The translations under genes were made by a program, and so were the position numbers. A stretch of 64,000 nt of DNA from Idiomarina aquatica (GTDB lineage: Bacteria; Pseudomonadota; Gammaproteobacteria; Enterobacterales; Alteromonadaceae). How positions within the stretch are numbered: position 1 is the stretch's first letter; each line of letters begins with the position of its first letter. Shown here piece after piece: positions 19,108-37,844 of this stretch. Location of the stretch: the NCBI RefSeq assembly GCF_004362895.1, contig NZ_SNXI01000002.1, positions 124,001-188,000 on the forward strand, written 5' to 3'. Below the pieces are notes generated by a model. It ran no database searches, was not told the origin of the DNA, and saw only the letters and a program-made list of their open reading frames with translations.

Positions 19108-20175
19108 ATGAAACAGCTCATTAAACGTCTGATCCCCAGCGCCCTGCTGGGGACAGTCAAAAAACAGAAAGAGGCGACCGCGACCGCATTGACGCAACTT
19201 ATGGGTCGCTCGCGCTGGCTGGCTAAGTTGGGTTATGGAGTATTATCATCGCTTTTCTCGCGTGAAAATTATGTGACGGCAGCCGGGATCCGGCGCCATC
19301 ACCAATTAGATAAAGAACCGACCCAGCAGTCGCATGCGCGGTTACGGCGAAATACCCATCGACTAGAAAAAGGCCTGACCATGCAGCCGCGTCGTGAGGT
19401 CTTCGGGTTAGCATATTTGGGGCAACTGGTTGATGACTTTCGGTCTCAGGCGAGCAAGGGCAATGCGTGTCAGGAAGAGCTGCAGTGGGCCAATAGCGTT
19501 TTAACCGAATATTTCTCGTTCGCAGATGAGAGCGAGCCGGCGATAAAACGTGCCCGGGCCCGTTTTTTGGCCTGTGGCTATGTTGGTAACCAGCAAAATT
19601 ACAGCCCTTATGAGCGGCAAACGTCGTTACAGAGCCGGGTTGAATTTGACGAATTTAAAAAGCTGGCGATGCAACGCCGCTCAGTGCGTTGGTTTACCGA
19701 TGAGCGCGTACCTCGGTCATTAGTTGAACGGGCGATGCAGGCCGCGACACTGGCGCCAAGCGCGTGTAATCGACAGCCGTTTAATGTGTATATTATTGAC
19801 GAGGACGACGCATTAAAGCGAGCCGTTAAACAGCCGATGGGCACCGCAGGCTGGGAGCATAATATTCCGATGCTGGCTGTCTTTGTCGGTGATTTTTCCT
19901 GTTTTGAAGCAGCCCGCGACCGTCATGTCCCGTATATTGACGCATCGCTAGCCGCGATGAACTTTATGTTGGCATTAGAAACTTTAGGTTTAGCCAGTTG
20001 TCCGATAAACTGGCCTGATATTGAAATCCGCGAGCGACGGATGGCAAAATTACTGAAACTCGATGCTTGGCAACGCCCCATCATGTGCATGGCCATAGGC
20101 TATGCGCAAGAAGAGGGGGGCATTGCCTTTTCTCAGAAAAAACTACCAGAGCAGTTAATACGTTATGTGGAATAA
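19108..20175 (+). CDS. Nitroreductase family protein with N-terminal extension
   Basis: A 355-residue protein. Residues about 185-345 are a nitroreductase-like flavin domain: 'RRSVRWFTDERV' near 191, 'AATLAPSACNRQPFNVYI' near 212 and a C-terminal 'IMCMAIGYAQEEG'. Residues 1-180 are an extension without a clear family; it includes 'RRNTHRLEKGLTMQPRREVFG', seen in nitroreductase proteins of polysaccharide loci. FMN-dependent reduction is expected, but the substrate is unknown. It lies 18 bp after the export gene and overlaps the first secretion gene by 11 bp, so it physically links the polysaccharide genes to the type II secretion operon. Confidence 0.72.
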   Translation: MKQLIKRLIPSALLGTVKKQKEATATALTQLMGRSRWLAKLGYGVLSSLFSRENYVTAAGIRRHHQLDKEPTQQSHARLRRNTHRLEKGLTMQPRREVFGLAYLGQLVDDFRSQASKGNACQEELQWANSVLTEYFSFADESEPAIKRARARFLACGYVGNQQNYSPYERQTSLQSRVEFDEFKKLAMQRRSVRWFTDERVPRSLVERAMQAATLAPSACNRQPFNVYIIDEDDALKRAVKQPMGTAGWEHNIPMLAVFVGDFSCFEAARDRHVPYIDASLAAMNFMLALETLGLASCPINWPDIEIRERRMAKLLKLDAWQRPIMCMAIGYAQEEGGIAFSQKKLPEQLIRYVE

Positions 20176-20596
20176 ACGAATGAACCAGCACACCACGCGT
20201 CGACAAAATGTCCGTGGCTTTACTTTGATCGAGCTCCTGATTGTTATCGTGATTTTGGGCTTACTTGCGTCCTTGGTTGCGCCGACGATGTTTTCTAAGG
20301 TCACGTCGTCACAGCGCGACACTGCGGCAACACAAATGCAAATGTTTGAGACAGCATTAGACACTTACCGCCTCGATGTCGGCCGTTACCCGGAAAAACT
20401 GGAAGAAGTACGCGAGTCGGATGCACCGAACTGGGACGGGCCTTATCTTCCCAAGGCATTACCCAAAGACCCTTGGGGTAACGATTATGTTTACCGTACA
20501 CCGGGTGAGAATGGCCAGCCCTATTACATGGCGTCAATGGGCGCTGATGGTCAAGAAGGTGGCGAGGAAGACAACGCGGATATCGTGCATCAATGA
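20165..20596 (+). CDS. gspG: Type II secretion major pseudopilin GspG
   Basis: A 143-residue pseudopilin. After a short basic leader comes the prepilin peptidase site 'RGFTLIELLIVIVILGLLASLVAP' with Gly(-1), Phe(+1) and Glu(+5). The C-terminal half has the GspG signature 'YRLDVGRYP...LPKDPWGNDYVY' and an acidic tail. GspG polymerises into the periplasmic pseudopilus that pushes substrates through the secretin. An in-frame ATG at 20180 would give a shorter leader. It overlaps the nitroreductase gene by 11 bp and the ATPase gene by 4 bp. No prepilin peptidase gene is in the window, so PilD elsewhere must process it. Confidence 0.9.
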   Translation: MWNKRMNQHTTRRQNVRGFTLIELLIVIVILGLLASLVAPTMFSKVTSSQRDTAATQMQMFETALDTYRLDVGRYPEKLEEVRESDAPNWDGPYLPKALPKDPWGNDYVYRTPGENGQPYYMASMGADGQEGGEEDNADIVHQ

Positions 20597-22257
20597 TTCA
20601 GCAAACACTGGTTGAACAGCTTCAGGCTGAGTTTAGTGTATCTTCGGGGGACCTAGACAAAGCCATACAGTACCAAGACAAATATGGCGGCCGGCTAGAG
20701 CAGATTTTAGTCAATATGGGGTCTTTACCTGAAGACCAGCTACCACAACTGTATGCGCAAAGTTTTCAGTTGCCAACGTTTGATATCCGACAGTGGGAAG
20801 AATGGACAGCACCCGAGTTAGATCCGGGGCTGCTTGATTTCTTTGTGGAGCAAGACTGGATCCCATTGCAAGTCCGAGATGACAATTGGACTTTTGCTGT
20901 TAAGTATCCGCTAAACTTGGCAGTTAACGAATGGCTAGAGTCCAATGAGGTTGATTTGACGCTGTTTATAGCTAGTGAACAAGACATTAGCCACTTTAAA
21001 TCGTTGTTGAATGAAAATGATAGTGATGGCCTGTCCTTTGATGAACTCTCGGGGGATGAAGAAGAGCGACTGCGCGAGTTGGCGTCGGAGGCTCCCACAG
21101 TAAACTTGTTAAACTCGCTAATAAGTCGCGCGCTTCGGCGCGGAGCGTCTGATATGCACCTAGAGCCTTTCCAAGGGGCATACCGAGTTCGTTTCCGCAT
21201 CGACGGTGTCTTGCACGATATCGAGACTTTGCCGCCACGTATGCAACTTCCGATTGTAACGCGCTTGAAGATATTGTCGGGTATGGACATTGCTGAAAAG
21301 CGTCGTCCCCAAGATGGCAAAATTGAAATGAAAATAGCCAACAAGGAACTCGACATCCGTGTGTCTTCGATGCCGCTCGCCAAGGGCGAGAGTGTCGTAA
21401 TGCGCTTCTTGTTAAAAGAATCTGTGCGTTATGACATGGAAGTTTTAGGTCTGGCTCCTGATGTTCGTCAGTGGATAAACGAGGATCTGCAAAAGACCTC
21501 AGGTGTTATTTTGCTGACTGGCCCGACGGGCTCTGGTAAGACCACAAGCTTGTATACTTTTCTTAATCAGCTTAATGATGACGAAGTAAAAATAGTAACA
21601 CTCGAAGACCCGGTCGAATATCAGCTTCCCGGCGTGAATCAAGTTCAGGTTAATCGTGATATCGGTTATGACTTTGCGTCAGGCCTACGTTCTATTGTAC
21701 GTCAGGATCCCGACATCATTATGTTAGGTGAAATCCGTGACCAGGAAACCGCGCGCATTGCTATGCAGTCGGCTTTAACAGGACACTTAGTGTTTTCAAC
21801 CGTGCATACTAACGATGCGGCCAGCGCCTATACGCGTTTGCTGGATCTCGGCGTAGAAGAATTTCTGCTAAATGCTGCCTTGGTATCTATCGTAGCACAG
21901 CGTCTTGCAAGAAAGGTTTGCCCACATTGTTCAGAGCCCCACCCTGAGGCCGAACACTTGGTTGCGCGTAACAAGATACATGCCATTGCTGAAAGGTTCG
22001 GTATCGAAAAACTTGATATTCGGCAAGCAAAAGGCTGTGAGCAGTGCGGTCATACCGGTTACTCAGGACGGGTAGCAGTAACCGAATACCTGCGGTGTGA
22101 TGACGATATCGTGACTCTGCCAAAAGACAGCGAGTTTTTAACCAAAGCGCGTCGCTTAAACCAAGAGCTGGGACGGCGAAATCTGTTACAAGATGGGTTA
22201 TATAAAGCCGCCCAGGGGATTACAACGATAGAAGAAGTGTTGCGGGTAGCAGGCTGA
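20593..22257 (+). CDS. gspE: Type II secretion ATPase GspE
   Basis: A 554-residue traffic ATPase. Residues 1-150 form the N1/MshEN-like domain that docks on GspL. The C-terminal motor has Walker A GPTGSGKT near 311-318, the Asp box 'VTLEDPVEYQ' near 337, Walker B 'IIMLGEIRDQETA' near 376 and the His box 'LVFSTVHTNDA' near 398. Two CxxC pairs (about 442 and 481) make the four-cysteine zinc site typical of GspE/PilB. It powers pseudopilus assembly from the cytosol. ATGA-type overlap links it to gspG, and its last base is the first base of gspF. Confidence 0.92.
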   Translation: MIQQTLVEQLQAEFSVSSGDLDKAIQYQDKYGGRLEQILVNMGSLPEDQLPQLYAQSFQLPTFDIRQWEEWTAPELDPGLLDFFVEQDWIPLQVRDDNWTFAVKYPLNLAVNEWLESNEVDLTLFIASEQDISHFKSLLNENDSDGLSFDELSGDEEERLRELASEAPTVNLLNSLISRALRRGASDMHLEPFQGAYRVRFRIDGVLHDIETLPPRMQLPIVTRLKILSGMDIAEKRRPQDGKIEMKIANKELDIRVSSMPLAKGESVVMRFLLKESVRYDMEVLGLAPDVRQWINEDLQKTSGVILLTGPTGSGKTTSLYTFLNQLNDDEVKIVTLEDPVEYQLPGVNQVQVNRDIGYDFASGLRSIVRQDPDIIMLGEIRDQETARIAMQSALTGHLVFSTVHTNDAASAYTRLLDLGVEEFLLNAALVSIVAQRLARKVCPHCSEPHPEAEHLVARNKIHAIAERFGIEKLDIRQAKGCEQCGHTGYSGRVAVTEYLRCDDDIVTLPKDSEFLTKARRLNQELGRRNLLQDGLYKAAQGITTIEEVLRVAG

Positions 22258-23459
22258 TGCCAAATTATAAGTACGAAGCCTACGATCAGTCCGGTGCCAG
22301 AATGAGTGGCGCAATAAACGCTGTGGATGAGAAAGGTGCGCTCGCCGAGTTGAAGGCGCAAAAATTGATACCGATATCCGTTAGCGAACAAACGAGCAAC
22401 AAAAGCTTGTTTGACGGTCTGAGTTCACGAGTAACGTTGTCTGATCTGGAGTTTTTTACATCAGAGCTGAGCTTATTGTTGCAAAGCGGGGTGCGTATTG
22501 ATAAGGGCATTGATATTATCAGGCGTTCTAAATCAAAGCCCGCATTAGCATCGCTGCTTAGCGACATTAGCCAAAGTTTGAAACGTGGGGGGTCACTCTC
22601 TGCTGCCCTGAAAGAGCACCCCAACGTATTTGACAAGTTATATGTAAATTTAGTTGAACTCGGCGAAGCGTCGGGTGAGTTGTCGGACATTTTTGATGGT
22701 TTGGCAAAAGATCTGAAATATAAGCGAGATTTAAATCGGAAGCTTGTTTCTGCCTTGACCTATCCTGCGGTCATCTTCTTTGTGTGTATTGCCTCTATCT
22801 TTTTGATCTTCAATTTTATCGTGCCGCAAATGGCCGACTTATTCAGTCAACAGGATTCACTACCTTGGTATACACAGGCAATGTTGAGTACGGCAGACTG
22901 GATGCAAAATTATCAATGGTTTTTAGTGTTCGGCGTTGTCGGTGCAGTCGCTATTGGTATTAGCTCGCTTCGGGATCATAACAATCGGGAAAAGTTTCAG
23001 CGGTTTCTGCTAACTGTCCCGGGTTTAAAAACAGCGCTGATATCCACTGAACGCATTCGTTTTAATTCGGGTTTAGCGCTAATGCTAAAAGCAGGTATAC
23101 AGATTGACCGAGCGTTAACACTGGCCATCGGTAACTTAAAGTCCGAACCTATCGTGCGTGAACTGACGGTGGCAAAAGAAAAAATTCAACGGGGAGGCGT
23201 GTTAAGTGAGGCTTTGCAGCAGACGTCATTGTACCCTGAATTCTATGTCTCACTGCTAGAGGTGGGTGAAGCATCGGGTAACTTACCCACTATTTTCGAA
23301 GAAATCGCAAACCGCAGTAGACAGGACTTTGAGAGTTGGACCCAACGGTTGACAACGCTTATCGAACCGTTACTAATTTTATTTATGGGGGTCATTGTTG
23401 GTGGCGTTGTCGTTGTGATGCTAATGAGTATGGTGTCCGTAAATGACGTATCGTTTTAA
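22257..23459 (+). CDS. gspF: Type II secretion inner-membrane protein GspF
   Basis: A 400-residue platform protein with the usual two T2SSF repeats: 'FTSELSLLLQSGVRIDKGIDIIRR' near residue 64 and 'FNSGLALMLKAGIQIDRALTLAIG' near 267. Membrane helices lie near 165-190, 215-240 and 370-395. The N-terminus 'YKYEAYDQSGARMSGAINA' is the GspF/PilC opening. It binds GspE and GspL and couples ATP hydrolysis to pilin addition. It shares one base with gspE and overlaps the next pseudopilin gene by 17 bp. Confidence 0.92.
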   Translation: MPNYKYEAYDQSGARMSGAINAVDEKGALAELKAQKLIPISVSEQTSNKSLFDGLSSRVTLSDLEFFTSELSLLLQSGVRIDKGIDIIRRSKSKPALASLLSDISQSLKRGGSLSAALKEHPNVFDKLYVNLVELGEASGELSDIFDGLAKDLKYKRDLNRKLVSALTYPAVIFFVCIASIFLIFNFIVPQMADLFSQQDSLPWYTQAMLSTADWMQNYQWFLVFGVVGAVAIGISSLRDHNNREKFQRFLLTVPGLKTALISTERIRFNSGLALMLKAGIQIDRALTLAIGNLKSEPIVRELTVAKEKIQRGGVLSEALQQTSLYPEFYVSLLEVGEASGNLPTIFEEIANRSRQDFESWTQRLTTLIEPLLILFMGVIVGGVVVVMLMSMVSVNDVSF

Positions 23460-23868
23460 AGCAGGTTTTGGCTTTACGCTTCTCGAATTGCTGACAACCC
23501 TTGCTATCGCTGGCACAGCGATGGCGCTTGTTGCGCCCCTTGCGGTGGAACAAGTGAGTAAGATGGAGGCTCGCGCTGAGGCCTCACGATTAAATGATCA
23601 AATCGGCAGGTGGTCGTTTATGGCGTTTTCCAGAGGGTGCCCGATATCATTAGATTTAGCCGAGAGTGTAATAACTATCTCGTCAGAAGGGTGTGATTTC
23701 TCTGAACGCATAACACACGAATACATCAGCTTTCCGCATCAAGTTATCAAGTTTTCCAGCTCAGGATTTACAGACGTTACTCGATTGTCATACAACTACG
23801 ATGGCTCTGTCCGGCAAGTTGACTTTGAAGAAGCCTTGGTCAATCAGACCGCGGAGGTCGGGGAGTGA
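23443..23868 (+). CDS. GspH-like minor pseudopilin
   Basis: A 141-residue prepilin-like protein. The cleavage site is 'FGFTLLELLTTLAIAGTAMA', with Gly(-1), Phe(+1) and Glu(+5). The rest is a short beta-rich domain with two cysteines. Position after gspF and before the I and J genes makes GspH the best call, but sequence alone does not settle it. It would sit in or near the pseudopilus tip. Confidence 0.72.
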   Translation: MTYRFKAGFGFTLLELLTTLAIAGTAMALVAPLAVEQVSKMEARAEASRLNDQIGRWSFMAFSRGCPISLDLAESVITISSEGCDFSERITHEYISFPHQVIKFSSSGFTDVTRLSYNYDGSVRQVDFEEALVNQTAEVGE

Positions 23869-24269
23869 GTTGTAACCGAGGGTTCACGCTTATTGAGGTG
23901 CTTGTTGCTTCCGTCATCCTGATGGGAGCGATTGCTGTAGCGAATGCGGTTTACAGCAATGCAGTTGAAGCAACACTAAAATCAAGAGCTGCCCTGGAGC
24001 TTAATAAAAACCTGCCGATAGTGTTGGCGAATGTGCGCAGGGAGGTTCGTGAAGCCCCCACCAAAAGCAATGGTTCAGGGCAAGTATTTGGTCTCAGTTA
24101 CCAATGGACAAAAGAATTGGTTGAGAAGGCGGCACCTCCTCCGCAGTTTGATGTTGATGAACGAAGGATGGTTAGGTACGAAGAGAAATTTTCACTATGG
24201 CTTGTGACCCTCAACGTGCAATATCAAGGTAAAACACGAACTTTTGAGTTAAATGAGGTGACTTGGTGA
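23865..24269 (+). CDS. GspI-like minor pseudopilin
   Basis: A 134-residue protein starting with GTG inside the previous stop (GTGA). The cleavage motif 'NRGFTLIEVLVASVILMGAIA' is very close to that of GspI, whose hallmark is 'IEVLVA'. A short periplasmic domain ends in 'FELNEVTW'. It is expected to form the tip complex with the J and K pseudopilins encoded next. It overlaps the J gene by 4 to 7 bp depending on the start. Confidence 0.76.
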   Translation: MSCNRGFTLIEVLVASVILMGAIAVANAVYSNAVEATLKSRAALELNKNLPIVLANVRREVREAPTKSNGSGQVFGLSYQWTKELVEKAAPPPQFDVDERRMVRYEEKFSLWLVTLNVQYQGKTRTFELNEVTW

Positions 24270-24967
24270 GACGAAGAGTTGCCGCTCGTGGTTTTACTTT
24301 GATAGAACTATTGATTTCACTGGTGATTTTAAGTTCGCTCGTGACTCTGGCGGGCTTCGCCTACACAACATATCTCGATCGCTGGCAAGAAAATCTTGGA
24401 GATTTCGACTCAACGCTTCATGACGTGCGCAGTCGTATGTTGGTAAACCAAGCTCTACAAAGCGTCTATCCCTTCATCGTGACCTCAGGTGAGAACGGTG
24501 CTGTAGCACCTTTCTTTTTTGGTGAAAAAAACTTAGTCGAAGGGGTGGTTGGTACTGGTATATTCAATAACGCTAACGCCGGTATTTTTAAGTTAGAATT
24601 AAAAGGCGATACGCTAACTTACTTTGAACGCTCCACCGCAGATGTTTTGTTGGAGCAGGCGCAGCAAGAATTCACTTACGACCGGCAGTTACGGCTTATA
24701 TCTGACGTCTCGGAGATTACTTACCGCTATTATGGCTGGCCCAGTTATGATGACAAACTCGAATTTTTATCAGGTAACGGATCGGACAGTCGTCGCTGGT
24801 TTGATAGATACTTGAGTTCAGAAACAGGGTTACTACCAGAAAAAATTGAGTTGAATATACGAATTAATGAAAGTTCACCCACACGCTTGATATACAATGT
24901 TGCCAACGGTGCCGATGTCATTATGGGTCGCTATTTCAATGATGAGGATGAAGCCAGTGGTTTTTAG
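24266..24967 (+). CDS. GspJ-like minor pseudopilin
   Basis: A protein of about 233 residues with the prepilin motif 'ARGFTLIELLISLVILSSLVTLAG' and a large periplasmic domain, matching GspJ in size and position. I use the GTG at 24266, which overlaps the previous stop; a TTG three bases earlier is also in frame. It should join the I and K subunits at the pseudopilus tip. Its end overlaps the K gene by 26 bp. Confidence 0.74.
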   Translation: MRRRVAARGFTLIELLISLVILSSLVTLAGFAYTTYLDRWQENLGDFDSTLHDVRSRMLVNQALQSVYPFIVTSGENGAVAPFFFGEKNLVEGVVGTGIFNNANAGIFKLELKGDTLTYFERSTADVLLEQAQQEFTYDRQLRLISDVSEITYRYYGWPSYDDKLEFLSGNGSDSRRWFDRYLSSETGLLPEKIELNIRINESSPTRLIYNVANGADVIMGRYFNDEDEASGF

Positions 24968-25883
24968 TAGAAACAAAGGCGGAACCCAGACAGGCGTTGC
25001 ACTTATACAGGCCATAGTTTTAAGTGCGGTACTCAGTATTATATTGTTGTTTCTTAATACATCGGCGAAAAAAAACGTTGAGGCCGCGCAAACGTTACAA
25101 GACAAGAATCAGGCGCTTGTTGACTTATATAGTACCGAGGCGCAGTTGCTTTACGATTTGTTCACCAACGAGCATGTCAGCGGTGAGTATGCGAAGGGGC
25201 GTTGGTACTTTTGGGGTAAGCCTTTTAATATGGATGAAACTGCGGTCGTTTCGATACAGGATCAAGCCGGTTTACTTAATCTACATCAGCTCGCAGAACG
25301 AGAACTCATTGAACTGATTGAACGGCTGGGTTATGACAAAGCAAAAGCAGCTGAGGTGGCTCATTCGTTAATTGATTGGCAAGACAGTGATAATGATACC
25401 CTACCTCGAGGTGCAGAGCGACAGGCTTATCAGTTTGGGCCTCGGAACAAACCGATGCCTGAACTGTCTGAAATCAATTGGTTGCCACAGGTGCCTTTTG
25501 AATTACGTGAAACGTTACAAGATTATGTCACAATATTTAGCCCAGGCTATTTTAATCCAGCTAACGCGCCCGATAAATTACTTGCAGCGACGTTAGATGT
25601 TGGTAAGCTGTCCGACCCTGTAAAAGAGTTTAGACTTGGGCGTTCATCCACTAAAGATTTTAAGGACGTGAGTCAATTAGAGACTGATGAAGGTGTGTAT
25701 TTTTTTACCAGCAAACATTTAGCATACAAAATTGCGGTAACGGTAGGGCAGTCCACGATGGCCAAGCAGATGCAAGTGGTGATCGACCCATATAGCGATA
25801 GCGCACAGAATACCCTAAAAGTACTGTCAATCAACTGGGGCGATAAAGGCCTAATTAATGAGAAGTTAGAAGATAATGAGTAG
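24942..25883 (+). CDS. GspK-like minor pseudopilin
   Basis: A 313-residue protein from ATG 24942. Its prepilin segment 'TGVALIQAIVLSAVLSIILLFL' lacks Glu at +5, as is usual for GspK, the tip subunit. The large soluble part contains 'VSIQDQAGLLNLH' and 'LIDWQDSDNDTLPRGAE', matching the GspK motifs 'i.DeqGriNLN' and 'i.DWiDaDd...GAE'. In-frame codons upstream (from 24897) lie deep inside the J gene and are unlikely starts. It overlaps the GspL-like gene by 8 bp. Confidence 0.82.
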   Translation: MRMKPVVFSRNKGGTQTGVALIQAIVLSAVLSIILLFLNTSAKKNVEAAQTLQDKNQALVDLYSTEAQLLYDLFTNEHVSGEYAKGRWYFWGKPFNMDETAVVSIQDQAGLLNLHQLAERELIELIERLGYDKAKAAEVAHSLIDWQDSDNDTLPRGAERQAYQFGPRNKPMPELSEINWLPQVPFELRETLQDYVTIFSPGYFNPANAPDKLLAATLDVGKLSDPVKEFRLGRSSTKDFKDVSQLETDEGVYFFTSKHLAYKIAVTVGQSTMAKQMQVVIDPYSDSAQNTLKVLSINWGDKGLINEKLEDNE

Positions 25884-26964
25884 TTCGCGATTATTAGAAA
25901 AACTGACACATCTCGTGAATGGCGCGATATCACCATTGATTGGCTATTTCAGTACACGAGTGCACAGCGCTGACCTTATCCCTCTTGGCTCGACTAAAAA
26001 GGTGGGTAAAAGACCAGTTTGGGTGATAGGTAGAAAGCACTATCGTGAATGGGTAAAGCATTACCCCATGAACGAAAAAAAGTTGGTTAAAAAAGCGCTG
26101 AAACTCGATGCGTCTGAGAGTCATGCCCATATTTTGGTAAAGTCAGATACAGGTGGCTATGATGTCGTTTTTTGGCGTTTCGACACGTCTAAACTGCCAT
26201 CTGGGAGTGTTTTCATTCCCGAGTCTTATCTGATTGGAAAATCGTTAAAGAAAAATGAAGTAGCAACGATAATTACACCTGACGGTCGATTGTTTGTTGC
26301 AAATCAGCAAGGTCTGTCTCGCTCTGCGAAAGAGACTCAACTAATGACCTCGGCTGAGCAGTTTGCTGTCAGTATTGGCCTTTCTGAACCTAAATCGCAG
26401 CGTCAGTACGAACTAGCGACCCTTATCGAGGAAGGGTTTTTGAGAGTAATCCCTAATGCGGGTTCGTTCTTGAGTCAACAGCAGCGAACCTTACCGCCCT
26501 TATGGCGAGTCGCGCTACCGGCCATTATTGTAGCACTGCTGTACCTTGCCGGGTCGAGTGCCTATCTCTCGATAAAGCTTAATTCAGTGCAAGAAAGTTA
26601 CGAATCGCGTCAGGATGAGCTCACCGCGGCATTGGAAAAGCAAGACCGAGTCAGGCAGCTTGAACGTTCCTTGCAAACATATCAAGAAATCGATCAGACC
26701 ACTGCATCTTCGTTTTATATTTGGTCTTTGTTAAAACCTCTGTTTGAACAAAAGGACGTAAGCTTCCGAAGAATTACATACATTGATGGTAGTTTTGAAA
26801 TTTTTGGCAGCGCTGAACGTGCGACTGATGTTTTGAGGACCTTGTCACAGTTGGATGGCGTGACCGCCTCCTTTAATCGGCCAGTGTCCAAAAGGCGAGC
26901 TGAAGAAATATTTAGCATCGAATTGAGCTACTCGCCTCAGCTCTCGGGAGGCGGTAATGACTAA
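25876..26964 (+). CDS. GspL-like inner-membrane platform protein
   Basis: A 362-residue protein laid out as GspL: a cytosolic domain (about 1-205), one membrane helix 'LPAIIVALLYLAGSSAYLSI' near 213-233, a coiled stretch near 240-270 and a small periplasmic ferredoxin-like domain at the end. Sequence similarity to well-known GspL is faint, and it also recalls PilM/PilN fusions. Position between K and M is the main support. It would recruit the ATPase to the membrane. It overlaps both neighbours by 8 bp. Confidence 0.6.
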   Translation: MSSSRLLEKLTHLVNGAISPLIGYFSTRVHSADLIPLGSTKKVGKRPVWVIGRKHYREWVKHYPMNEKKLVKKALKLDASESHAHILVKSDTGGYDVVFWRFDTSKLPSGSVFIPESYLIGKSLKKNEVATIITPDGRLFVANQQGLSRSAKETQLMTSAEQFAVSIGLSEPKSQRQYELATLIEEGFLRVIPNAGSFLSQQQRTLPPLWRVALPAIIVALLYLAGSSAYLSIKLNSVQESYESRQDELTAALEKQDRVRQLERSLQTYQEIDQTTASSFYIWSLLKPLFEQKDVSFRRITYIDGSFEIFGSAERATDVLRTLSQLDGVTASFNRPVSKRRAEEIFSIELSYSPQLSGGGND

Positions 26965-27514
26965 AACAAGGCAATACCAGCTCTTATCGATTGTAGCAGT
27001 TCTGGTCATAATCAAATTCGTTGTACAGCCGATATTAGAATGGCAAAACGAAACGTTAGATAACATCGCGGTAAGTGAACGGCGGCTAGAGTCGGGGCTA
27101 GATGCTATAGAAAAAAGTGACGAATACGAGCTGAAAGCAATCCAGTTAGGGCAAGAGTTGTCGAATTCTAAGGGCGGGCTTATGAGTTTCGTGGGAGCCA
27201 ATGCCTTTCAGTTAGAGCAGCAAACAGCATTCGAAAACATAGCGTCCCAACACAATATTACAGTTGAGTCTGCGTCATGGTCTCCGATGCAAACTATGGA
27301 TAACGGGATTTTAGAGCATCGTTTAGATGTGACTTTGATTGGCGACACAGAGGATATTATTGCATTACAAGCTCAACTGGAGTTGGAAAACGAAAACGCA
27401 ATGGTATTGACGGAATACAACTTTGTCATAACCCGACACCTGCAGTTCAGTTTGGGTACGGTCAGAGGCCAGGCCACAGTGTCCTTTTTCATGGAACCGG
27501 AAGGGGGGCTGTAA
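26957..27514 (+). CDS. GspM-like inner-membrane platform protein
   Basis: A 185-residue bitopic protein: a short cytosolic start, a membrane helix near 8-28 ('LLSIVAVLVIIKFVVQPIL'), a coiled region near 30-70 and a small periplasmic alpha-beta domain. This is the plan of GspM and PilO. Its place after the L gene supports GspM, which stabilises GspL. Sequence identity to characterised GspM proteins looks low. It overlaps L by 8 bp and shares a base with the next gene. Confidence 0.6.
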   Translation: MTKTRQYQLLSIVAVLVIIKFVVQPILEWQNETLDNIAVSERRLESGLDAIEKSDEYELKAIQLGQELSNSKGGLMSFVGANAFQLEQQTAFENIASQHNITVESASWSPMQTMDNGILEHRLDVTLIGDTEDIIALQAQLELENENAMVLTEYNFVITRHLQFSLGTVRGQATVSFFMEPEGGL

Positions 27515-28077
27515 TGCAATTAATGTCACTTAAACCCTCTAAGCTTGATATCTTTATCTTGGTCTTGGCGTTACTTGTCGCCGGGTGGGATTTCGTCAGC
27601 CGGTTAAGCCTGCCTAATTCACACGAGTCGTCTGATAGTTCGAAAACCGAAGTGGCGTCTTCGAAGAACGGCGCGAAAGCACAATTTAATCCTGAACAAC
27701 TGCTCTCATATTATCAATCATATGGTGGTAAAGATGAAAGCAATGATACGAGTGATGGGGCGGATAGCAAACCTGAACTGAGTGAGGCCGAGAGAATTAA
27801 GCAGAACGACCCATGGAAAGACGAGGGAATCGTTCTGGGCAACTTCAAATATCGCTTGGCTGGTGTTTTTATCGATGAGACACGAACTGCAGTTTTACAA
27901 AGTTATTCATACGAAGATGGCCAGCGAAGGGTTAAGGCTGTTACGCAAGGTGAAAATATGGGAGAAGTCTTAGTCTCTGAGGTGTGGCCTAAATATATCG
28001 TTTTGAGCTTAAATCGTGGTGGCTCGGCCCAAGATAAAAGAATAGACCTTTACCCGCAGAGCGGGTCGGACAATTGA
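27514..28077 (+). CDS. GspC-like protein with HR domain
   Basis: A 187-residue protein with one N-terminal membrane helix (about 11-28), a low-complexity Ser/Asp/Lys linker (about 35-100) and a C-terminal beta domain ('YRLAGVFIDETRTAVLQ...VWPKYIVLSLNRGG') like the homology region of GspC or the PilP beta domain. It lacks the PDZ or coiled C-terminus of full GspC. It probably bridges the inner-membrane platform and the secretin encoded next. Placing C directly before D is common; placing both at the end of the operon is not. Confidence 0.6.
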   Translation: MQLMSLKPSKLDIFILVLALLVAGWDFVSRLSLPNSHESSDSSKTEVASSKNGAKAQFNPEQLLSYYQSYGGKDESNDTSDGADSKPELSEAERIKQNDPWKDEGIVLGNFKYRLAGVFIDETRTAVLQSYSYEDGQRRVKAVTQGENMGEVLVSEVWPKYIVLSLNRGGSAQDKRIDLYPQSGSDN

Positions 28078-28084
28078 GGTGCGC

Positions 28085-30175
28085 ATGTATTTAAAGAAAA
28101 CCATCGTTATAGCATTGGCAGTCGCACTTTCCGGCTGCTCGGTCCTACAAACAAGAGAAGTGACTAACGAAAAAGTCACGGTACAGAAGTCAGCTATCGA
28201 GGGTGGCGAGCTTTCCGAACGCATAGTGGATGAAACAAGCGCAACCAGTGAAGATGAAAAAGCCACCTCTTTGTTGACTCCTTCGGAGCGATTTGAACGC
28301 TTGGAAGTGATGCGGTTGCAAGAAGTAGGCGAGACGGATGTCGCAAGCCTGTCAGACCGATTCTCTACCGCAACGGCGGTTAATGTCACGTCAAACCAAA
28401 TGCCGGTCAATGAATTCATCCATTACGTGATGGGTGATGTACTCGAAATAAACTACATTGTTGACACTAAAGCGGCGTCTGACAAAAAAGTTGTTACTCT
28501 GAATCTTCAGAATCAAGTTAATGAGCGTGAATTGTTCAATATCTCCCGCAGTATTTTAGAGCGTAACGGCTATCAGATTAGCCTTAAAGACAATGTCTTC
28601 TATATAACGACGTTAAGTGACTCCATATCACAAAACATGATTGTTGGTATTGGTAGGGAGCCCCAGAATGTCCCTCAGACGGATCAGCAAATCACTCAGA
28701 TTCTGAGTCTTGACTACGGTTATAACAGCAAAATGGGATTGGTTTTACAAACCATGGCCGACGTGCAGATCAGGGAAGATGACAAGCAAGGCGTTTTGTT
28801 TTTGACTGGCCGCCGCACAGAGATTTTAAAAGCGATTGATTTTATAAACTTAGTCGATAATCCAAGCCCGTTGTCAAGAAATATCGGCATTCTTGAACTT
28901 GTTTTCCTGAGCCCACAAGAGCTTGTGGACCAGCTACAGCGCGTAATGGGAAATGAGGGGATAATGGTTGATACTCGTGCGAATCCATCAGCCTCGATTA
29001 TTCTGACTCCAATCGAGACGACTTCGCAGGTCGTGTTGTTTGCGCGCGACGAAAAATTCCTTCAGCGCGCCCAATACTGGGCAAATCGCTTGGATAAGGC
29101 AGATAACTCGTCAGGAAGCCGGTATTTCGTATTTCAGCCTGAATTCGCCAGGGCTTCGGACTTAGGTGATAGCCTTGGGCCGTTAATCGGTCAGGTCAGT
29201 CCCGCGGGTAACAATCGCAGTGAACAATCCAGCGCCGGCACCAGTGCGAATGAACCGCGCCGTGCACAGGGAGGAAGCTCAGCTTCCGCGGAGTCTGAAA
29301 ATCTAAAAATGATTGTCGATGAGCGCACCAACTCTTTAGTATTTTTCACCACAGGTGAAATATATAACAAGCTGCTACCGTTAATCAGGCGATTAGATAC
29401 GCAACCAAAACAGGTGATGTTAGAAGTTATCATTGCAGAGGTCACGTTAAGTGACAGCTTTGAAAAGGGCGTTGAGTTTACGCTGCGCGGTAATGACCAG
29501 GTTGTGACTACTGAAGGAAGCTTCGGACTCGACGGCATCGGTGGTCTGACCTATGCGTTAACGGGTGTTGATGGTGACTTACGGTTTAAGCTTTTTCAGG
29601 ATTCAAGTCTCGTCAATGTGTTATCTAGACCGAGCGTAGTGGTTAGAGATGGCGTTACTGCAAGCATTAGTGTGGGGACTGATATCCCGACTGTGGGTCA
29701 AACAACATCCGACCCTATCGCGGGAGAGAGACAAACGACTCAGATTGAATACAGGAAAACCGGTATTGAACTCAGCGTGACACCAACGGTGAATTCAAAG
29801 GGCGTAGTCATAATGACGATTGACCAAAGTATTAGTAACACGACCGACGGTGGCGTGAGTGTTGGCGGGTCACCCTCTATTTTTGAGCGAAGCATTAACA
29901 CAGAGGTGGTAGCGGATAGTGGACAAACTGTTATCCTGGGTGGTTTGATCAGCGAGAACAAGACAAAGTCGGATACCAAAGTGCCCGGGTTAGGAAACTT
30001 GCCAATAATAGGTAACTTGTTTCGGGCTGATACCGATTCAACGGAAAAGACAGAACTTGTTGTTCTGGTGACTCCGCGTATCGTCGAGCGAAGTGACCAG
30101 TGGAAGAGTTTAAAGGATCAATTTCAACGTCAGTTTAACCAACTTGATCTTAACAATAATGTTATTGAAAACTGA
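28085..30175 (+). CDS. gspD: Type II secretion secretin GspD, lipoprotein form
   Basis: A 696-residue outer-membrane secretin from ATG 28085 (GAGG 6 bases upstream; an in-frame GTG at 28079 is an alternative). The leader ends in the lipobox LSGC (Cys 18), so the protein should be lipidated and may pilot itself, as known for HxcQ-type secretins; no separate pilotin is present. An N0 domain starts near residue 98, N-type KH-like domains follow, with a Ser-rich linker near 375-400. The secretin core 'VMLEVIIAEV' starts near 444, with 'RPSVVVRDG', 'GTDIPTVGQ' and 'PGLGNLPIIGNLFR' near the end. It forms the exit channel. Confidence 0.9.
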   Translation: MYLKKTIVIALAVALSGCSVLQTREVTNEKVTVQKSAIEGGELSERIVDETSATSEDEKATSLLTPSERFERLEVMRLQEVGETDVASLSDRFSTATAVNVTSNQMPVNEFIHYVMGDVLEINYIVDTKAASDKKVVTLNLQNQVNERELFNISRSILERNGYQISLKDNVFYITTLSDSISQNMIVGIGREPQNVPQTDQQITQILSLDYGYNSKMGLVLQTMADVQIREDDKQGVLFLTGRRTEILKAIDFINLVDNPSPLSRNIGILELVFLSPQELVDQLQRVMGNEGIMVDTRANPSASIILTPIETTSQVVLFARDEKFLQRAQYWANRLDKADNSSGSRYFVFQPEFARASDLGDSLGPLIGQVSPAGNNRSEQSSAGTSANEPRRAQGGSSASAESENLKMIVDERTNSLVFFTTGEIYNKLLPLIRRLDTQPKQVMLEVIIAEVTLSDSFEKGVEFTLRGNDQVVTTEGSFGLDGIGGLTYALTGVDGDLRFKLFQDSSLVNVLSRPSVVVRDGVTASISVGTDIPTVGQTTSDPIAGERQTTQIEYRKTGIELSVTPTVNSKGVVIMTIDQSISNTTDGGVSVGGSPSIFERSINTEVVADSGQTVILGGLISENKTKSDTKVPGLGNLPIIGNLFRADTDSTEKTELVVLVTPRIVERSDQWKSLKDQFQRQFNQLDLNNNVIEN

Positions 30176-30217
30176 TGATGATTTTTATATTGTTGAATCG
30201 CACAATAACAATGAATT

Positions 30218-30235
30218 CAGTAAATTATTTTACTG
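30218..30235 (+). terminator. Weak AT-rich hairpin after gspD
   Basis: CAGTAAA-TTAT-TTTACTG forms a perfect 7-bp stem 43 bases after the gspD stop. It is AT-rich and followed by AGTTTG, not a full T-run, so it could be a weak terminator, an mRNA end-stabiliser or a protein-binding site. Confidence 0.3.
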
Positions 30236-30252
30236 AGTTTGTAAAAGAAGTG

Positions 30253-30282
30253 TTGACAGCTATTCAAGTGAATGAATAGACT
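30253..30282 (+). promoter_or_regulatory. Promoter of the candidate S-layer gene
   Basis: A perfect -35 TTGACA (30253-30258) is followed after 18 bases by TAGACT (30277-30282, 4 of 6). The start site would be near 30289, leaving a leader of about 97 bases before the ATG at 30386. Confidence 0.55.
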
Positions 30283-30288
30283 GTTACC

Positions 30289-30385
30289 TGTCGTGGAGGT
30301 TCTCCGCCTTCGCGTGTTTTTAAAATATTGGAACGGGCGAGAAGACCCAAAGTTCCAGTTTCATGAAACTTGGAGAAAGGAAAAT
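30289..30385 (+). promoter_or_regulatory. Structured 5' leader with strong ribosome binding site
   Basis: The leader contains GGAG-GTT-CTCC (30295-30305), a GGAAC/GTTCC pairing, and the palindrome AGTTTC-AT-GAAACT that ends just before the ribosome site GGAGAAAGGA. Hairpins placed like this are known to lengthen the life of mRNAs for abundant outer-surface proteins; that role is inferred here. Confidence 0.45.
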
Positions 30386-31825: not shown

Positions 31826-31840
31826 TCGCTTATTTGTACG

Positions 31841-33433
31841 ATGTATAATATAGCGAACAAAAAAGGGTGGCTTTGCCACCCTTTTTTTTACTCATTATTA
31901 GGCTTAATAATTATCTCAATTGCTTATTGTGAGGTAATTTCAGTTCCATTCTACTTTGACGATAACGTCACCATTTTTTCAAAAACCGTACAGATTATTG
32001 CTTCCGAAATTTGGTCGCCGGTGACGAGGACAGTCGCCGACCTAAGCTTTATGTTGCAACGTAACTTCTTTGGTGATGTAGCTAGCGGCTATCACATTGT
32101 TTCAGTCGTGTTGCATGGTAAGGTATTTATTCTAGCCATCAGCGTTCTTCTGTCACAGTTGCAAGGCAGTAACCGCCAAAACCCCGGTGCGCTTTTAACT
32201 TTTACAGCAGTTTTGATGATTGCCCTATGGGCGATGTCACCCATAAATTCACAGGCTGTAGTATACGTCGCTCAGCAATATGTGCTGTGGTGTGCATTAT
32301 TTTCCCTGTTGTCCCTAATTACTCTCATTAAGGCATACAACGGCCACCGAAGAATATTGATGACAGTTCTTACGCTGACTTTTTGGATTTTGGCAGTAAA
32401 ATCAAAACAGACGGCATTATTTTTACCCTTAATTTATATTTGCTATACGCTGATATTTCACAAACGATTTTCGGATCATATGCGGCTACTACTGGCGGGT
32501 TTGCTGTTGGGGGTAACGCTATTAATCATCGCTTCGATTCAGGTTCCGACGATTGATCAGATAACTCGCGAAACATTAGCTGTGCCCCGGCTTGAGTATA
32601 TTAAAGCCCAATCGGTGATTTTATGGAGCTACTGGGAATTAGTATTTTGGCCTGACCCCTTAGTTTTGGACTATGGCATTAGGGAAAATATATTCTCTGA
32701 TGTTCAAGTTGCCATAGCAAGTATTGCTCATCTATTTGTTATTTCCGGGGCGATACTGGTCGCACGTAAGTTACCGTTTCTCACACTGGCGGTGTTATCC
32801 TTCTATATTTTGCATATAGTTGAATCAAGTTTTGTGCCTATTCAGGACTTTAAACTTGAACATCGAATGTACTTACCTTCACTTTTTTTCACCATATTTT
32901 TGAGTATTCAAATTATAAAGCTCCTTCCAAAACAATGGCTAAAAGTTGTCGCCCCTACTTTAACTGTCGTTGTTCTTCTGCAAGGCTATGTGGTTCATCA
33001 ACGTATTGATGCGTGGAGTGAACCAGAACAGTTTTATCAACAGGAGCTACAAAATTCCTACCAAAAGTTTTGGCGAACAGAGAATCAGTTGGGTGCACTG
33101 TATTTGGAGAAAGGCCAATATCAACGCGCAGCCGAAATTTTTACAAAGTTGCTTCAGGATAAGACGGTTCCGAATAATGAGGCCATCTTACTAAATGCGG
33201 TCGCTGCTTTTTCAGGGCTTGAACGTTGGGCTATTGTGGAGCGATTAGAGAATATGATTATCCCACACTTCAGTCAGTTAACAGCGATAAACAAATCACG
33301 CCTGTTAATTAATCGCGCAATCAGATTCGCTGCAAACGGTGATTGTGACAGTGCTATCCAATCGTATGAAGAGTCAAAGCGCTATTCGGAGTATACCGAA
33401 GCTCACGAAGTGAGGCTGCCAGGTTGTTTGTGA
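31841..33433 (+). CDS. GT-C-like membrane glycosyltransferase with TPR-type C-terminus
   Basis: A 530-residue membrane protein with about ten helices over residues 17-400, a first-loop acidic pair 'FYFDDN' near 38-42 and 'EHRMYLPSLFF' near 340. These are features of the Tmtc/PMT-like GT-C proteins that put sugars from a lipid carrier onto proteins in the periplasm. Residues about 405-530 are helical repeats of TPR type ('LGALYLEKGQYQRAAEIF'). Only ATG 31841 opens this frame sensibly, yet it lacks a ribosome site and its first codons span the terminator, so expression probably depends on read-through and coupling from the surface-protein gene 15 bases upstream. It may glycosylate that protein; this is inference. 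Confidence 0.6.
   Translation: MYNIANKKGWLCHPFFYSLLGLIIISIAYCEVISVPFYFDDNVTIFSKTVQIIASEIWSPVTRTVADLSFMLQRNFFGDVASGYHIVSVVLHGKVFILAISVLLSQLQGSNRQNPGALLTFTAVLMIALWAMSPINSQAVVYVAQQYVLWCALFSLLSLITLIKAYNGHRRILMTVLTLTFWILAVKSKQTALFLPLIYICYTLIFHKRFSDHMRLLLAGLLLGVTLLIIASIQVPTIDQITRETLAVPRLEYIKAQSVILWSYWELVFWPDPLVLDYGIRENIFSDVQVAIASIAHLFVISGAILVARKLPFLTLAVLSFYILHIVESSFVPIQDFKLEHRMYLPSLFFTIFLSIQIIKLLPKQWLKVVAPTLTVVVLLQGYVVHQRIDAWSEPEQFYQQELQNSYQKFWRTENQLGALYLEKGQYQRAAEIFTKLLQDKTVPNNEAILLNAVAAFSGLERWAIVERLENMIIPHFSQLTAINKSRLLINRAIRFAANGDCDSAIQSYEESKRYSEYTEAHEVRLPGCL
31859..31889 (+). terminator. Strong intrinsic terminator
   Basis: Stem GGGTGGC-TTT-GCCACCC (31865-31881) is followed by eight T and preceded by six A, so it may work in both directions. 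It ends the candidate S-layer transcript and lies within codons 7-17 of the next gene. Confidence 0.88.
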
Positions 33434-33450
33434 TAGCGGGAGAGCTTTAA

Positions 33451-34809
33451 GTGGGAAGGTTCATACGTACTGATCGTTTACGCTCGGAGGTGAAATGCTA
33501 TCCAGTCAAGTCAGAAAGAGAATGTAGTTCTGGCTGTTTTTCTTTTTTCGGACTTGAGAATAGCAGTCCGGGAACTCACTCTTTTACTGCAGCCGGCTAT
33601 GCTATAAGCCACTTTACGATTGTTGATGGATGCTATCAGGTGCCCGCTGGATGTGAAGTCGATTTGGACAAATCCAATTCGACAAAAGTATATTGGCAGT
33701 TTCTTCCGAGAAATGCGGACAATAGTAGGGGAGCTACTATTAGAGACGTTATTTCAAAGTTAGAAAACGCAATGACCTTAAATAGTGAGCAGCTTCGAAA
33801 CCGCCAAATCGTGGTCCCATTGAGCGGCGGATACGACAGCCGCGCTATTCTTCTCGCGCTAGTAAAATTAGGATACAAAAATATTCTAACGTTTACCTTT
33901 GGACGCCCGTCCAGCCCGGAAGTCACCCTAAGCCATTCGATAGCAAAAAAGCTTGGTGTCAATTGGCATTGCGTTACCTACACCAAGGCGACCTGGCGTC
34001 GCTTAAAAAACGACCCCGAATTTAATCGTTATCTTCACTTTTGCTCTAAGGGCATTTCGGTGCCTAACGTGCAGGTCTATCCGGCATTGGAGCAACTGGT
34101 GAAACGGGGTGTTATTAAACCGGATGCGATCGTATTACCCGGCCACACGGGTGATTTTGTATCCGGAGGACATATCCCTGCCGAGCTGATGTATTCCTAC
34201 GACGACGTTGAGCAGCTTCAACACTTAGGTAACGTCATTGTTAAAAAGCACTTTAAGTTTGACCGAAAGTTGCGTAAATCAGGACAAACTCCTGAGTATT
34301 TAATGGCGCAGTTACGAGAACGGTTTACACATTACGCGGGTAAGGGCTATCCGCTGGCGACGATGTTTGAGGCCTGGGAATGTTCGGAGCGTCAGGCTAA
34401 GTTTATTGTTAACTCGAACCGGTATTATGAATTTTTTAATCTTGACTGGTTTATGCCGCTCTGGGAAGACAATTTCGTCGATTTTTGGGTCGAGGTGCCG
34501 TATTCGCAGCGCAAAGATAAAAAACTGTGGATTGAGGCTGTCGAGCAACTTTGGCAAGACGTCACCGGTGAGAAAGAGCCTCTTGGGCATGCAGAAACTC
34601 ACCTGGCAGACTGGCAGTTAAAGTGGAAGCATCGGTTGGATTACTTTTTTGATAACAACCATCTGCTACAACTCGTGCCATTCTCGCGCTGGTTAAAATA
34701 TAAGCTCCATTTAAGTAATAAGAACGGTAGTTTGTATGGTTATCTTGCCGATGTCATGTTAGCCCGTTATCGGTTGGGTAAGCCGGAATCTCCTATTTGG
34801 CCAAAATAG
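33451..34809 (+). CDS. Asparagine synthetase-related protein without glutaminase centre
   Basis: A 452-residue protein starting at GTG 33451 with GGGAGAG upstream. The ATP-pyrophosphatase motif 'PLSGGYDSRAIL' near 122-133 and the C-terminal synthetase domain are clear. The N-terminus is not a class II glutaminase: there is no Cys at position 2, and the first 110 residues are shorter than that domain. It may therefore use another amine donor or have a changed reaction. Asn-synthetase-like genes in polysaccharide loci often amidate uronic acids or modify glycans. It is convergent with the flippase gene, 29 bases apart, and follows the GT-C gene by 17 bases. Confidence 0.72.
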   Translation: MGRFIRTDRLRSEVKCYPVKSERECSSGCFSFFGLENSSPGTHSFTAAGYAISHFTIVDGCYQVPAGCEVDLDKSNSTKVYWQFLPRNADNSRGATIRDVISKLENAMTLNSEQLRNRQIVVPLSGGYDSRAILLALVKLGYKNILTFTFGRPSSPEVTLSHSIAKKLGVNWHCVTYTKATWRRLKNDPEFNRYLHFCSKGISVPNVQVYPALEQLVKRGVIKPDAIVLPGHTGDFVSGGHIPAELMYSYDDVEQLQHLGNVIVKKHFKFDRKLRKSGQTPEYLMAQLRERFTHYAGKGYPLATMFEAWECSERQAKFIVNSNRYYEFFNLDWFMPLWEDNFVDFWVEVPYSQRKDKKLWIEAVEQLWQDVTGEKEPLGHAETHLADWQLKWKHRLDYFFDNNHLLQLVPFSRWLKYKLHLSNKNGSLYGYLADVMLARYRLGKPESPIWPK

Positions 34810-36134: not shown

Positions 36135-36874
36135 GAATGCTTTTTTAGGCCAAGCCGAACGTAGTGCATAAACGTAAGGATTGTTCGCGGTAGCGACAAC
36201 TTTTCAACATCACGGTAAAGCTGCCACTGGTAACTGAGTACCCGTAACTTATTATGGGAAATGCCACCATCTAACCGATAATTGGCCAGTGGCTCCAGAA
36301 TGGCTTTGGCACGGTGCTCATCTTTGAGTATGTTTAGCCAAAGTGCCATATCCTGACGTTTACGTATAGCGGGCATATAGCGGGTGCCACAAAGCGCGCG
36401 ATCATAAACGGCGGTTAGGCAACCAATAACGTTAGACTTTAGCAACTCGTTGTAGTCAGTTGTTTCTGGCGGGTAAAAGCTCTCGCGCTTGCCGTTACTG
36501 TCAAACCGGTCGTAAGCGCTGTAACACAATGCGACAGTTTCATTTTGCATGAATGCCAGTTGCTTTTCCAATTTATTCGGATACCACAAGTCATCCGCGT
36601 CCAAAAACGCGATATAACGCCCCTGAGCGCGTTTAATGGCGCTATTACGGGCTTTGCCTGCACCGCCATTTTCAGTCAGCTTTTCGAGTTTTATACGAGG
36701 CTCATTGTCGGCATATTTTTGTATTACAGCGACCGTATCATCATTCGAGCCATCATCGCTAATCAGCAGCTCCCAGTGGCGGTAACTTTGCGCCATAACG
36801 GACTCAATACTGGCCGCTATGGTCTGGGCCGAGTTATAACTCGGCATGATGATGCTGACTAACTGGTCGTTCAT
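36131..36874 (-). CDS. Glycosyltransferase family 2 protein
   Basis: A 247-residue GT2. It opens 'VSIIMPSYNSAQTIAASIESVMAQSY', has 'LISDDGSNDDT' near residue 36, 'YIAFLDADDLWYPNKLEKQL' with the DxD near 88, and 'KRQDMALWLNILK' near 168. This layout matches WaaE/KdtX-like and exopolysaccharide GT2 enzymes. It lies 3 bases after the epimerase gene in the minus-strand operon. The sugar added is unknown. Confidence 0.84.
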   Translation of the reverse strand: MNDQLVSIIMPSYNSAQTIAASIESVMAQSYRHWELLISDDGSNDDTVAVIQKYADNEPRIKLEKLTENGGAGKARNSAIKRAQGRYIAFLDADDLWYPNKLEKQLAFMQNETVALCYSAYDRFDSNGKRESFYPPETTDYNELLKSNVIGCLTAVYDRALCGTRYMPAIRKRQDMALWLNILKDEHRAKAILEPLANYRLDGGISHNKLRVLSYQWQLYRDVEKLSLPRTILTFMHYVRLGLKKHS

Positions 36875-37837: not shown

Positions 37838-37844
37838 AAACTGC

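Follow-up and report, generated by a model that had tools for sequence, protein, structure and literature searches.

As the available text of their sources presents them, the closest described systems fall into four groups. Slr4 is the S-layer protein of Pseudoalteromonas tunicata, confirmed by transmission electron microscopy and knockout; a type II secretion system (T2SS) operon lies immediately upstream of its gene, like arrangements occur in other species, and a dedicated system was proposed (Ali et al., 2020, PMC7821379), an arrangement that the AnnoView paper repeats (PMC11094555, 2024). In Aeromonas hydrophila AH-1, the T2SS genes spsE-F-G-H-I-J-K-L-M-orf2-D and the S-layer gene vapA lie inside the O-antigen cluster (PMC4413209), and the A-layer genes of A. 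salmonicida likewise belong to its O-antigen cluster, with lipopolysaccharide (LPS) described as the tether of the A-layer (PMC4483657). In Betaproteobacteria (Paracidovorax and relatives), the gene for the S-layer protein NpdA is located downstream of a gsp cluster (PMC10765051), and Gram-positive S-layers with SLH domains are anchored by CsaB-pyruvylated polymers (PMC6801904). Here, we analyse a stretch of 64,000 nucleotides from Idiomarina aquatica (contig NZ_SNXI01000002.1, positions 124,001 to 188,000 of the forward strand; hereafter, the window) in which an slr4-like gene stands behind a T2SS operon and is followed by genes for a TPR-containing membrane protein, putatively a GT-C glycosyltransferase (the GT-C/TPR protein), and for an asparagine-synthase-like (Asn-synthase-like) protein, with polysaccharide genes on both sides. 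The region is probably a dedicated Slr4-type S-layer export cassette coupled to a surface glycan, which would serve the S-layer as a tether or, less surely, as a decoration. The core of this system, Slr4 with a dedicated T2SS, is already known; what comparison of gene neighbourhoods appears to add is a steady glycan linkage around slr4, a repeated pairing of slr4 with the GT-C/TPR gene, and a group of slr4-linked pyruvyltransferases.

With P. tunicata, the window shares the Pfam family of the S-layer protein, its slot directly behind the T2SS operon, and a marine gammaproteobacterial host; the available text on the P. tunicata system mentions no glycan locus, GT-C/TPR gene, or pyruvyltransferase, any of which its neighbourhood figure could show. 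The likeness to the Aeromonas VapA/Sps system of the wb O-antigen cluster covers the T2SS order through Orf2-D, the S-layer gene that follows, and the flanking polysaccharide genes. The A. salmonicida proteins SpsE, SpsF, SpsG, SpsJ, and SpsL are given as 552, 395, 143, 235, and 371 residues, compared with 554, 400, 143, 234, and 362 in the window, and VapA of A. hydrophila has 469 residues compared with 479 for the window's Slr4, a likeness of size and gene order. The two loci differ in that gspG comes first in the window's operon whereas the Aeromonas order starts with spsE, and in that the Aeromonas O antigen is of the ABC-transporter (Wzm/Wzt) type whereas the window has Wzx and Wzz. NpdA differs from Slr4 both as an S-layer protein and in its host organisms, and the words 'polysaccharide' and 'glycosyl' do not occur in the available text of that paper. 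Like SLH/CsaB-type anchoring systems, the window has a PF04230-family pyruvyltransferase near the S-layer gene; unlike them, it belongs to an outer-membrane organism, is known here from its genes alone, and has no SLH domain in its S-layer protein, where PF19526 was the sole Pfam family found at E ≤ 0.001. A sequence-only reading of the window had judged the whole linked system little described. This is too strong for Slr4 with its T2SS, published in 2020 and 2024, and for the Aeromonas arrangement of T2SS, S-layer, and O-antigen genes, also in print, but it appears to hold for the glycan genes beside slr4: in searchable text the glycan linkage, the slr4-TPR pair, and slr4-linked pyruvyltransferases are undescribed for Slr4, and figures, supplements, and subscription papers could show them.

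In a homology search, the 479-residue protein matched Pfam family PF19526 (S-layer protein Slr4) with a score of 88 bits, the cut-off being 25, in agreement with the sequence-only reading, which had called the protein Slr4-related, codon-optimised, and endowed with a signal peptide. The other two descriptions also held: the effective number of codons (ENC) of the gene is 38.8 against a median of 54.5, the strongest codon bias among the 49 genes of the window, as expected for a very abundant protein, and a signal peptide is visible by eye at the N-terminus, MKTFNKTLLAAFVASASAGAFA. The gap of 210 bases between gspD and slr4 contains a promoter-like site (Table 1; the scanned stretch holds 14 such sites, compared with 8.9 expected by chance) and a ribosome-site-like stretch, GGAGAAAGG, ahead of the ATG. 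The GT-C/TPR gene begins 15 bases behind slr4, and the Asn-synthase-like gene 17 bases behind the GT-C/TPR gene.

The clearest support for a dedicated system comes from co-occurrence. In 345 genomes of the family, which are related so that counts are not independent, and with a close GspD defined by E of 1e-130 or better, Slr4 is present in 79 genomes and in 32 of the 52 genera. Both proteins occur in 71 genomes, GspD alone in 2 (73 with GspD in total), Slr4 alone in 8, and neither in 264; gspD is followed immediately by slr4 in 71 of the 73 loci holding both, and the T2SS operon order is intact in 26 of 31 named loci. In one GspD-only genome (G324), a 572-residue protein behind gspD groups with Slr4 by BLAST, and in the other (G145) a contig ends 2.4 kb away from gspD, the GT-C/TPR gene being 0.25 kb from another contig end. 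Among the Slr4-only genomes, a GspD is present but more distant in six (E between 1e-85 and 1e-101), whereas G121 and G195 lack any match at E ≤ 1e-40. Within its own genus, the window's genome is the only one of 19 with Slr4 and the only one with a full-length match to this GspD, since no secretin match in the other 18 exceeds 39% identity. Slr4 was found in 7 of 172 genomes of the order: four belong to the family, the window's among them, and three to two other families. The genome also encodes a second T2SS set (GspC at C2:58381, GspD at C2:60580, GspG at C2:64090) that looks like the housekeeping system, within an inventory of two GspG, one canonical GspC, and six secretin matches. Together, the co-occurrence, the conserved operon order, and the second T2SS give good support to the earlier proposal that the surface protein is exported through its own T2SS, and the near one-to-one pairing supports a T2SS dedicated to Slr4.

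The association of slr4 with polysaccharide genes is similarly general. We compared 100 stretches, most extending from just before gspD to about 16 kb past it, and grouped their proteins; downstream counts refer to the 71 loci (window included) with at least 8 kb past slr4, out of 74 Slr4 loci, and controls were 20 stretches of 19 kb located 150 kb away in the same genomes. The families recurring behind slr4 are Wzx, Wzz, glycosyltransferases, sugar-nucleotide enzymes, pyruvyltransferases, nitroreductase-like proteins, and sulfotransferases. Wzx was found in 54 of 71 Slr4 loci and Wzz in 39, and pyruvyltransferases in 30 and sulfotransferases in 26, all with 0 of 20 controls; glycosyltransferases occur in 57 of 71 loci compared with 3 of 20 controls, and sugar-nucleotide enzymes in 46 compared with 1. 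A named set of 80 loci, several members of which repeat the same genomes, gives the same glycan picture where Slr4 stands behind gspD. In the window, genes for a Wza-like SLBB protein, for a nitroreductase, and for several glycosyltransferases lie on the near side of slr4, and the far side carries parts of a Wzx/Wzy-type locus, among them Pfam-matched Wzx, Wzz, and initiating transferase, together with a Wzy-like candidate, glycosyltransferases, a UDP-sugar dehydrogenase, and the pyruvyltransferase; with glycan genes on both sides of slr4, the S-layer cassette lies inside a polysaccharide region, as in Aeromonas. A linked polysaccharide locus, as the sequence-only reading had it, is thus supported and is general for Slr4 loci.

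The cassette and the polysaccharide genes could instead share, by coincidence and with no functional link, a region that collects variable surface genes. We consider this unlikely. Downstream gene content does vary widely between genomes, and the cassette is present in only 1 of 19 genomes of its genus, both as a coincidental neighbourhood would predict, but the pyruvyltransferases are not distributed in this way, and a like arrangement is found in Aeromonas. In 340 genomes, there are 92 pyruvyltransferase matches in 84 genomes at E of 1e-30 or better; 20 of the 25 scoring at least 330 bits, the window's included, lie within 20 kb of slr4, compared with 14 of the 67 weaker ones (Fisher p=3e-7, only a guide since the sequences are related). 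As a separate observation, a nitroreductase-like (PF00881) gene neighbours the pyruvyltransferase in 21 of the compared loci; in the window the two genes are apart (19108-20175 and 41032-42189).

If the region does act as a glycan-coupled export cassette, Slr4 would enter the periplasm through Sec, as its N-terminus suggests, and its own T2SS would then carry it through the outer membrane, as the co-occurrence and the published analogues suggest. It would then assemble into a surface lattice, as documented in print only for P. tunicata, and the neighbouring Wzx/Wzz-type locus may make a polymer that tethers the lattice, as LPS does for the A. salmonicida A-layer. In a minority of genomes, including the window's, the putative GT-C/TPR enzyme might, less surely, add a sugar to Slr4 or to the polymer. 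Anchoring of Slr4 to the glycan is proposed by analogy, and glycosylation of Slr4 by the product of the neighbouring gene is only suggested, by gene adjacency. In a more specific scheme, an acidic polysaccharide (pyruvylated or otherwise) made by the adjoining genes would hold Slr4 S-layers on the outer membrane, as an independent counterpart, in Gram-negative bacteria, of the SLH/CsaB system, and the GT-C/TPR protein would glycosylate Slr4 in some lineages; taken as a whole, we find this scheme rather improbable. We also considered whether the GT-C/TPR gene and acidic-group enzymes are mutually exclusive, since a downstream pyruvyl- or sulfotransferase is present in 3 of 12 loci with the GT-C gene compared with 47 of 59 others (p=0.0005), and dropped the idea because three genomes with the GT-C gene (G192, G113, and G210) carry a pyruvyltransferase 11.6-13.3 kb upstream.

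The GT-C/TPR protein is where decoration and tethering have to be weighed against each other. It is found in 23 of 345 genomes and by coordinates lies directly behind slr4 in 14 of them (G000, G023, G070, G074, G078, G092, G113, G115, G116, G144, G159, G171, G192, and G210), 12 of which the map of open reading frames (ORFs) scores as having it as the next gene, with a small reverse ORF intervening in G070 and an slr4 fragment at a contig end in G116. Elsewhere, the gene is about 24 and 70 kb from slr4 (G076 and G082), on another contig as a weak match (G114), at a contig end (G145), or in Slr4-free genomes (G034, G066, G126 (weak), G317, and G337). When the slr4-TPR adjacency is mapped onto a tree of GspD from 73 loci, it requires 5 changes, of which well-supported branches force 4; one of the 5 is an artefact of scoring G070 as non-adjacent, and both numbers fall by about one. 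Such repeated change on the tree means that the pair arose, or disappeared, on more than one occasion. The branch that contains the window's GspD has 27 loci, of which only the window's shows the pair, and in the nearest GspD relative (G208) the 530-residue gene behind slr4 is, by hydropathy and N-terminus, not the GT-C/TPR protein.

GT-C glycosyltransferases have acidic catalytic residues in the first loop. The corresponding D40 and D41 are invariant in 22 homologues, as are R63, H92, K189, R250, E328, D336, E340, H341, and R342, which makes the GT-C/TPR protein look like an enzyme. The GT-C label, which the sequence-only reading had used, is supported by these motif-like residues but neither by Pfam nor by a fold search that started from a poor model. 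A low-threshold Pfam scan of the 22 homologues gave mainly TPR repeats and no GT-C family among the 25 of 45 families listed, and Foldseek, run with a poor model (pLDDT 61.7, five sequences), gave no match at E ≤ 0.001, its top rows being mostly TPR proteins. If this protein is a glycosyltransferase, the glycan locus might serve protein glycosylation rather than a tether, with the enzyme moving sugar onto Slr4 or the T2SS pseudopilins. We regard this as possible but less than an even prospect. The adjacency to slr4 in 14 of the 23 enzyme-holding genomes, its repeated gain or loss, and the sugar-nucleotide genes that follow the slr4-GT-C pair in most such loci would all fit; set against them are the presence of the gene in only 12 of 71 Slr4 loci by profile count, the artefact among the tree changes, the GT-C fold that neither Pfam nor the poor-model fold search confirmed, and two loci in which the gene stands behind gspD without slr4 (see below).

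Returning to a tether or, less surely, a decoration made by the neighbouring locus, the Asn-synthase-like protein adds a further candidate. Matches to it occur in 39 of 345 genomes; besides the window, only 6 reach E<1e-80, and in each of these the gene shares the strand of slr4 and lies downstream of it by no more than 5 kb; the next match (3e-38) is in a genome without Slr4 (G303). By analogy with related enzymes, the protein may amidate a sugar acid in the polymer.

Several observations weigh against an Slr4-dedicated, glycan-coupled cassette. The 479-residue protein is a distant match, with 19-27% identity to 27 aligned relatives and 17-26% to 32 in another alignment. Some related T2SS have no Slr4 behind gspD, and in two of these (L185:4986-6740 and L186:8064-9848, genomes G066 and G317) the GT-C/TPR gene directly follows a distant gspD, which suggests that its product may serve another T2SS substrate or the pseudopilins. 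Six of the 71 loci (G083, G149, G063, G212, G268, and G159) contain no Wzx, Wzz, or glycosyltransferase by profile, and the glycan profiles were trained on these same loci, making the linkage test partly circular. Surface loci also tend to cluster, and linkage is thus no proof of tethering. The low identity, and a strain known from its genes alone, leave some room for a T2SS that mainly exports other proteins, the Slr4-like protein being a minor substrate or no S-layer protein; we consider this very improbable in view of the PF19526 match, the strongest codon bias in the window, and the near-absolute pairing with GspD.

To our knowledge, the tethering of outer-membrane S-layers is known in detail for few Gram-negative bacteria. 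The review text available on the subject dwells on Caulobacter RsaA and LPS. The steady linkage of slr4 to sugar genes hints at what the coat attaches to or is decorated with, and it names candidate tether or decoration genes (pyruvyltransferase, Wzx, GT-C/TPR protein, and Asn-synthase-like protein) for a widespread marine S-layer. Aeromonas VapA and Slr4 together suggest that T2SS-exported S-layers in surface-glycan loci may be a repeated design.

Two further properties of Slr4 were considered. The sequence-only reading had described the protein as calcium-binding-looking, and it does have one DxDxDG loop, at residue 270. However, the motif is present in 27 of 85 Slr4 proteins, compared with a mean of 17.9 and a maximum of 28 in shuffled sequences (a stricter local form is present in 15 of 85, compared with a shuffled mean of 0.66); the loop is not family-wide, and we make no claim of a calcium-binding S-layer. 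An AlphaFold model of Slr4 (33 sequences; pLDDT 74.9, pTM 0.58) is read as a predicted string of tandem immunoglobulin-like (Ig-like) beta sandwiches, which we do not take as kinship with proteins of like fold, whereas threading of the P. tunicata protein gave a beta-helical, L-shaped, RsaA-like fold (PMC7821379). Foldseek ranks domains of surface adhesins highest, antigen I/II and PrgB among them, at TM-scores near 0.2 for the whole model, and the VIA comparison gives Z up to 9.6 for antigen I/II (root-mean-square deviation 8.6 over 256 residues) and 8.7 for a shaft pilin (3.0 over 130 residues). An RsaA chain is not among the rows listed, which is not evidence against RsaA likeness, and searches of PDB sequences with an Slr4 profile and with the single sequence gave nothing useful.

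Table 1. Features of the S-layer cassette and the surrounding polysaccharide genes (window positions).
Feature	Position	Strand	Basis
Wza-like polysaccharide export protein, SLBB repeats	16375..19089	+	PF02563, PF10531
Nitroreductase-like protein directly upstream of gspG	19108..20175	+	PF00881 E=2.2e-29
gspG-like major pseudopilin	20165..20596	+	PF08334 E=7e-31; TIGR01710 over cut-off
gspE-like ATPase	20593..22257	+	PF00437 E=2.4e-127, PF05157 MshEN; TIGR02533 under cut-off
gspF-like inner-membrane platform	22257..23459	+	PF00482 E=7.8e-55; TIGR02120 under cut-off
gspH-like minor pseudopilin	23443..23868	+	position, N-terminus, order in named loci; no Pfam match
gspI-like minor pseudopilin	23865..24269	+	PF07963 N-methylation motif; order
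gspJ-like minor pseudopilin	24263..24967	+	PF07963; order
gspK-like minor pseudopilin	24897..25883	+	PF21687 E=3.9e-13; ORF overlaps gspJ, start uncertain
gspL-like	25876..26964	+	position, size, order; no Pfam match
gspM-like	26957..27514	+	weak GspM NCBIfam match E=0.03, under cut-off; order
Small protein, slot of Aeromonas Orf2, possibly GspC/N-like	27514..28077	+	no Pfam match
gspD-like secretin	28079..30175	+	PF00263 E=4.3e-46; TIGR02517 under cut-off
Promoter-like site TTGACA-18-TAGACT before slr4	30253..30282	+	consensus match only
slr4-like S-layer protein gene, 479 residues	30386..31825	+	PF19526 E=9e-25; lowest ENC; Ig-like beta-sandwich model
Multi-transmembrane protein with C-terminal TPR, putative GT-C glycosyltransferase	31841..33433	+	directly behind slr4; invariant residues
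Asn-synthase-like protein	33451..34809	+	PF00733 E=3.2e-7
Wzx-type flippase	34839..36134	-	PF13440 E=3.1e-18
Glycosyltransferase family 2	36131..36874	-	PF00535
NAD-dependent epimerase/dehydratase	36878..37876	-	PF01370
Glycosyltransferase family 2	37845..38738	-	PF00535
Glycosyltransferase family 4	38735..39814	-	PF00534
Wzy-like candidate	39807..41063	-	about 10 hydrophobic stretches; no Pfam match
Polysaccharide pyruvyltransferase	41032..42189	-	grouped with family whose representative matches PF04230; window protein not itself scanned
Wzz chain-length regulator	42196..43101	-	PF02706 E=1.6e-12
UDP-glucose/GDP-mannose dehydrogenase	43111..44547	-	PF03721, PF00984, PF03720
PF00953-family (WecA-like) initiating transferase	44517..45695	+	PF00953 E=4.8e-33

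The T2SS operon comprises eleven genes (20165-30175) in the order G-E-F-H-I-J-K-L-M-small protein-D. A Pfam scan of the window's proteins identifies GspG, GspE, GspF, GspK, and GspD, so that the core parts (secretin PF00263, ATPase PF00437, platform PF00482, and major pseudopilin PF08334) are all matched, and H, I, J, L, and M are assigned chiefly by position, size, and order. Among GspG, GspE, GspF, and GspD, only GspG passes its NCBIfam equivalog cut-off; the others score below theirs (GspE 524 bits compared with 630, GspF 304 with 424, GspD 314 with 351), which indicates that the T2SS is divergent. No prepilin peptidase (GspO/PilD) was assigned inside the cluster, the rest of the genome not having been searched for one. 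The gene positions of the sequence-only reading were confirmed (secretin ORF ending at 30175, ATG of the 479-residue protein at 30386, TPR protein at 31841-33433, and Asn-synthase-like protein at 33451-34809). The small gene (27514-28077, 187 residues) occupies the place of GspC in this T2SS subtype, and Orf2 of A. hydrophila is placed similarly; canonical GspC (PF11356) was found in the genome only at C2:58381, and the 187-residue protein, which has no Pfam match, may be too divergent for one.

Related loci vary in what stands behind gspD. In L174, L176, and L177, a Wzx gene directly follows a related gspD without slr4, as though these loci had lost their S-layer gene but kept the T2SS and glycan genes together. 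In L181 (2615-4360) and L182, the slr4 slot holds proteins of 581-584 residues with a signal-peptide-like start and no match to the Slr4 profile used, and the relatives grouped with them in G231, G271, and G325 match that profile weakly; these are possibly very divergent or replaced S-layer proteins. Two to four slr4 copies per locus, 34% to 100% identical, are found in L121, L122, L125, and L138 (all of one genus) and in L129, L158, and L178, which looks like paralogue diversification of the surface protein. A search for plasmid spread gave only two GspD matches at E ≤ 1e-50, both distant and rhizobial. GspD relatives of 32% identity occur in deltaproteobacterial genomes (L245 and L247), with a 530-residue ORF directly behind in L245, and could mark further secretin-linked surface proteins. 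Near the polysaccharide locus of the window, a subtilase with a proprotein-convertase P domain (48378-50627) is a plausible secreted protease.

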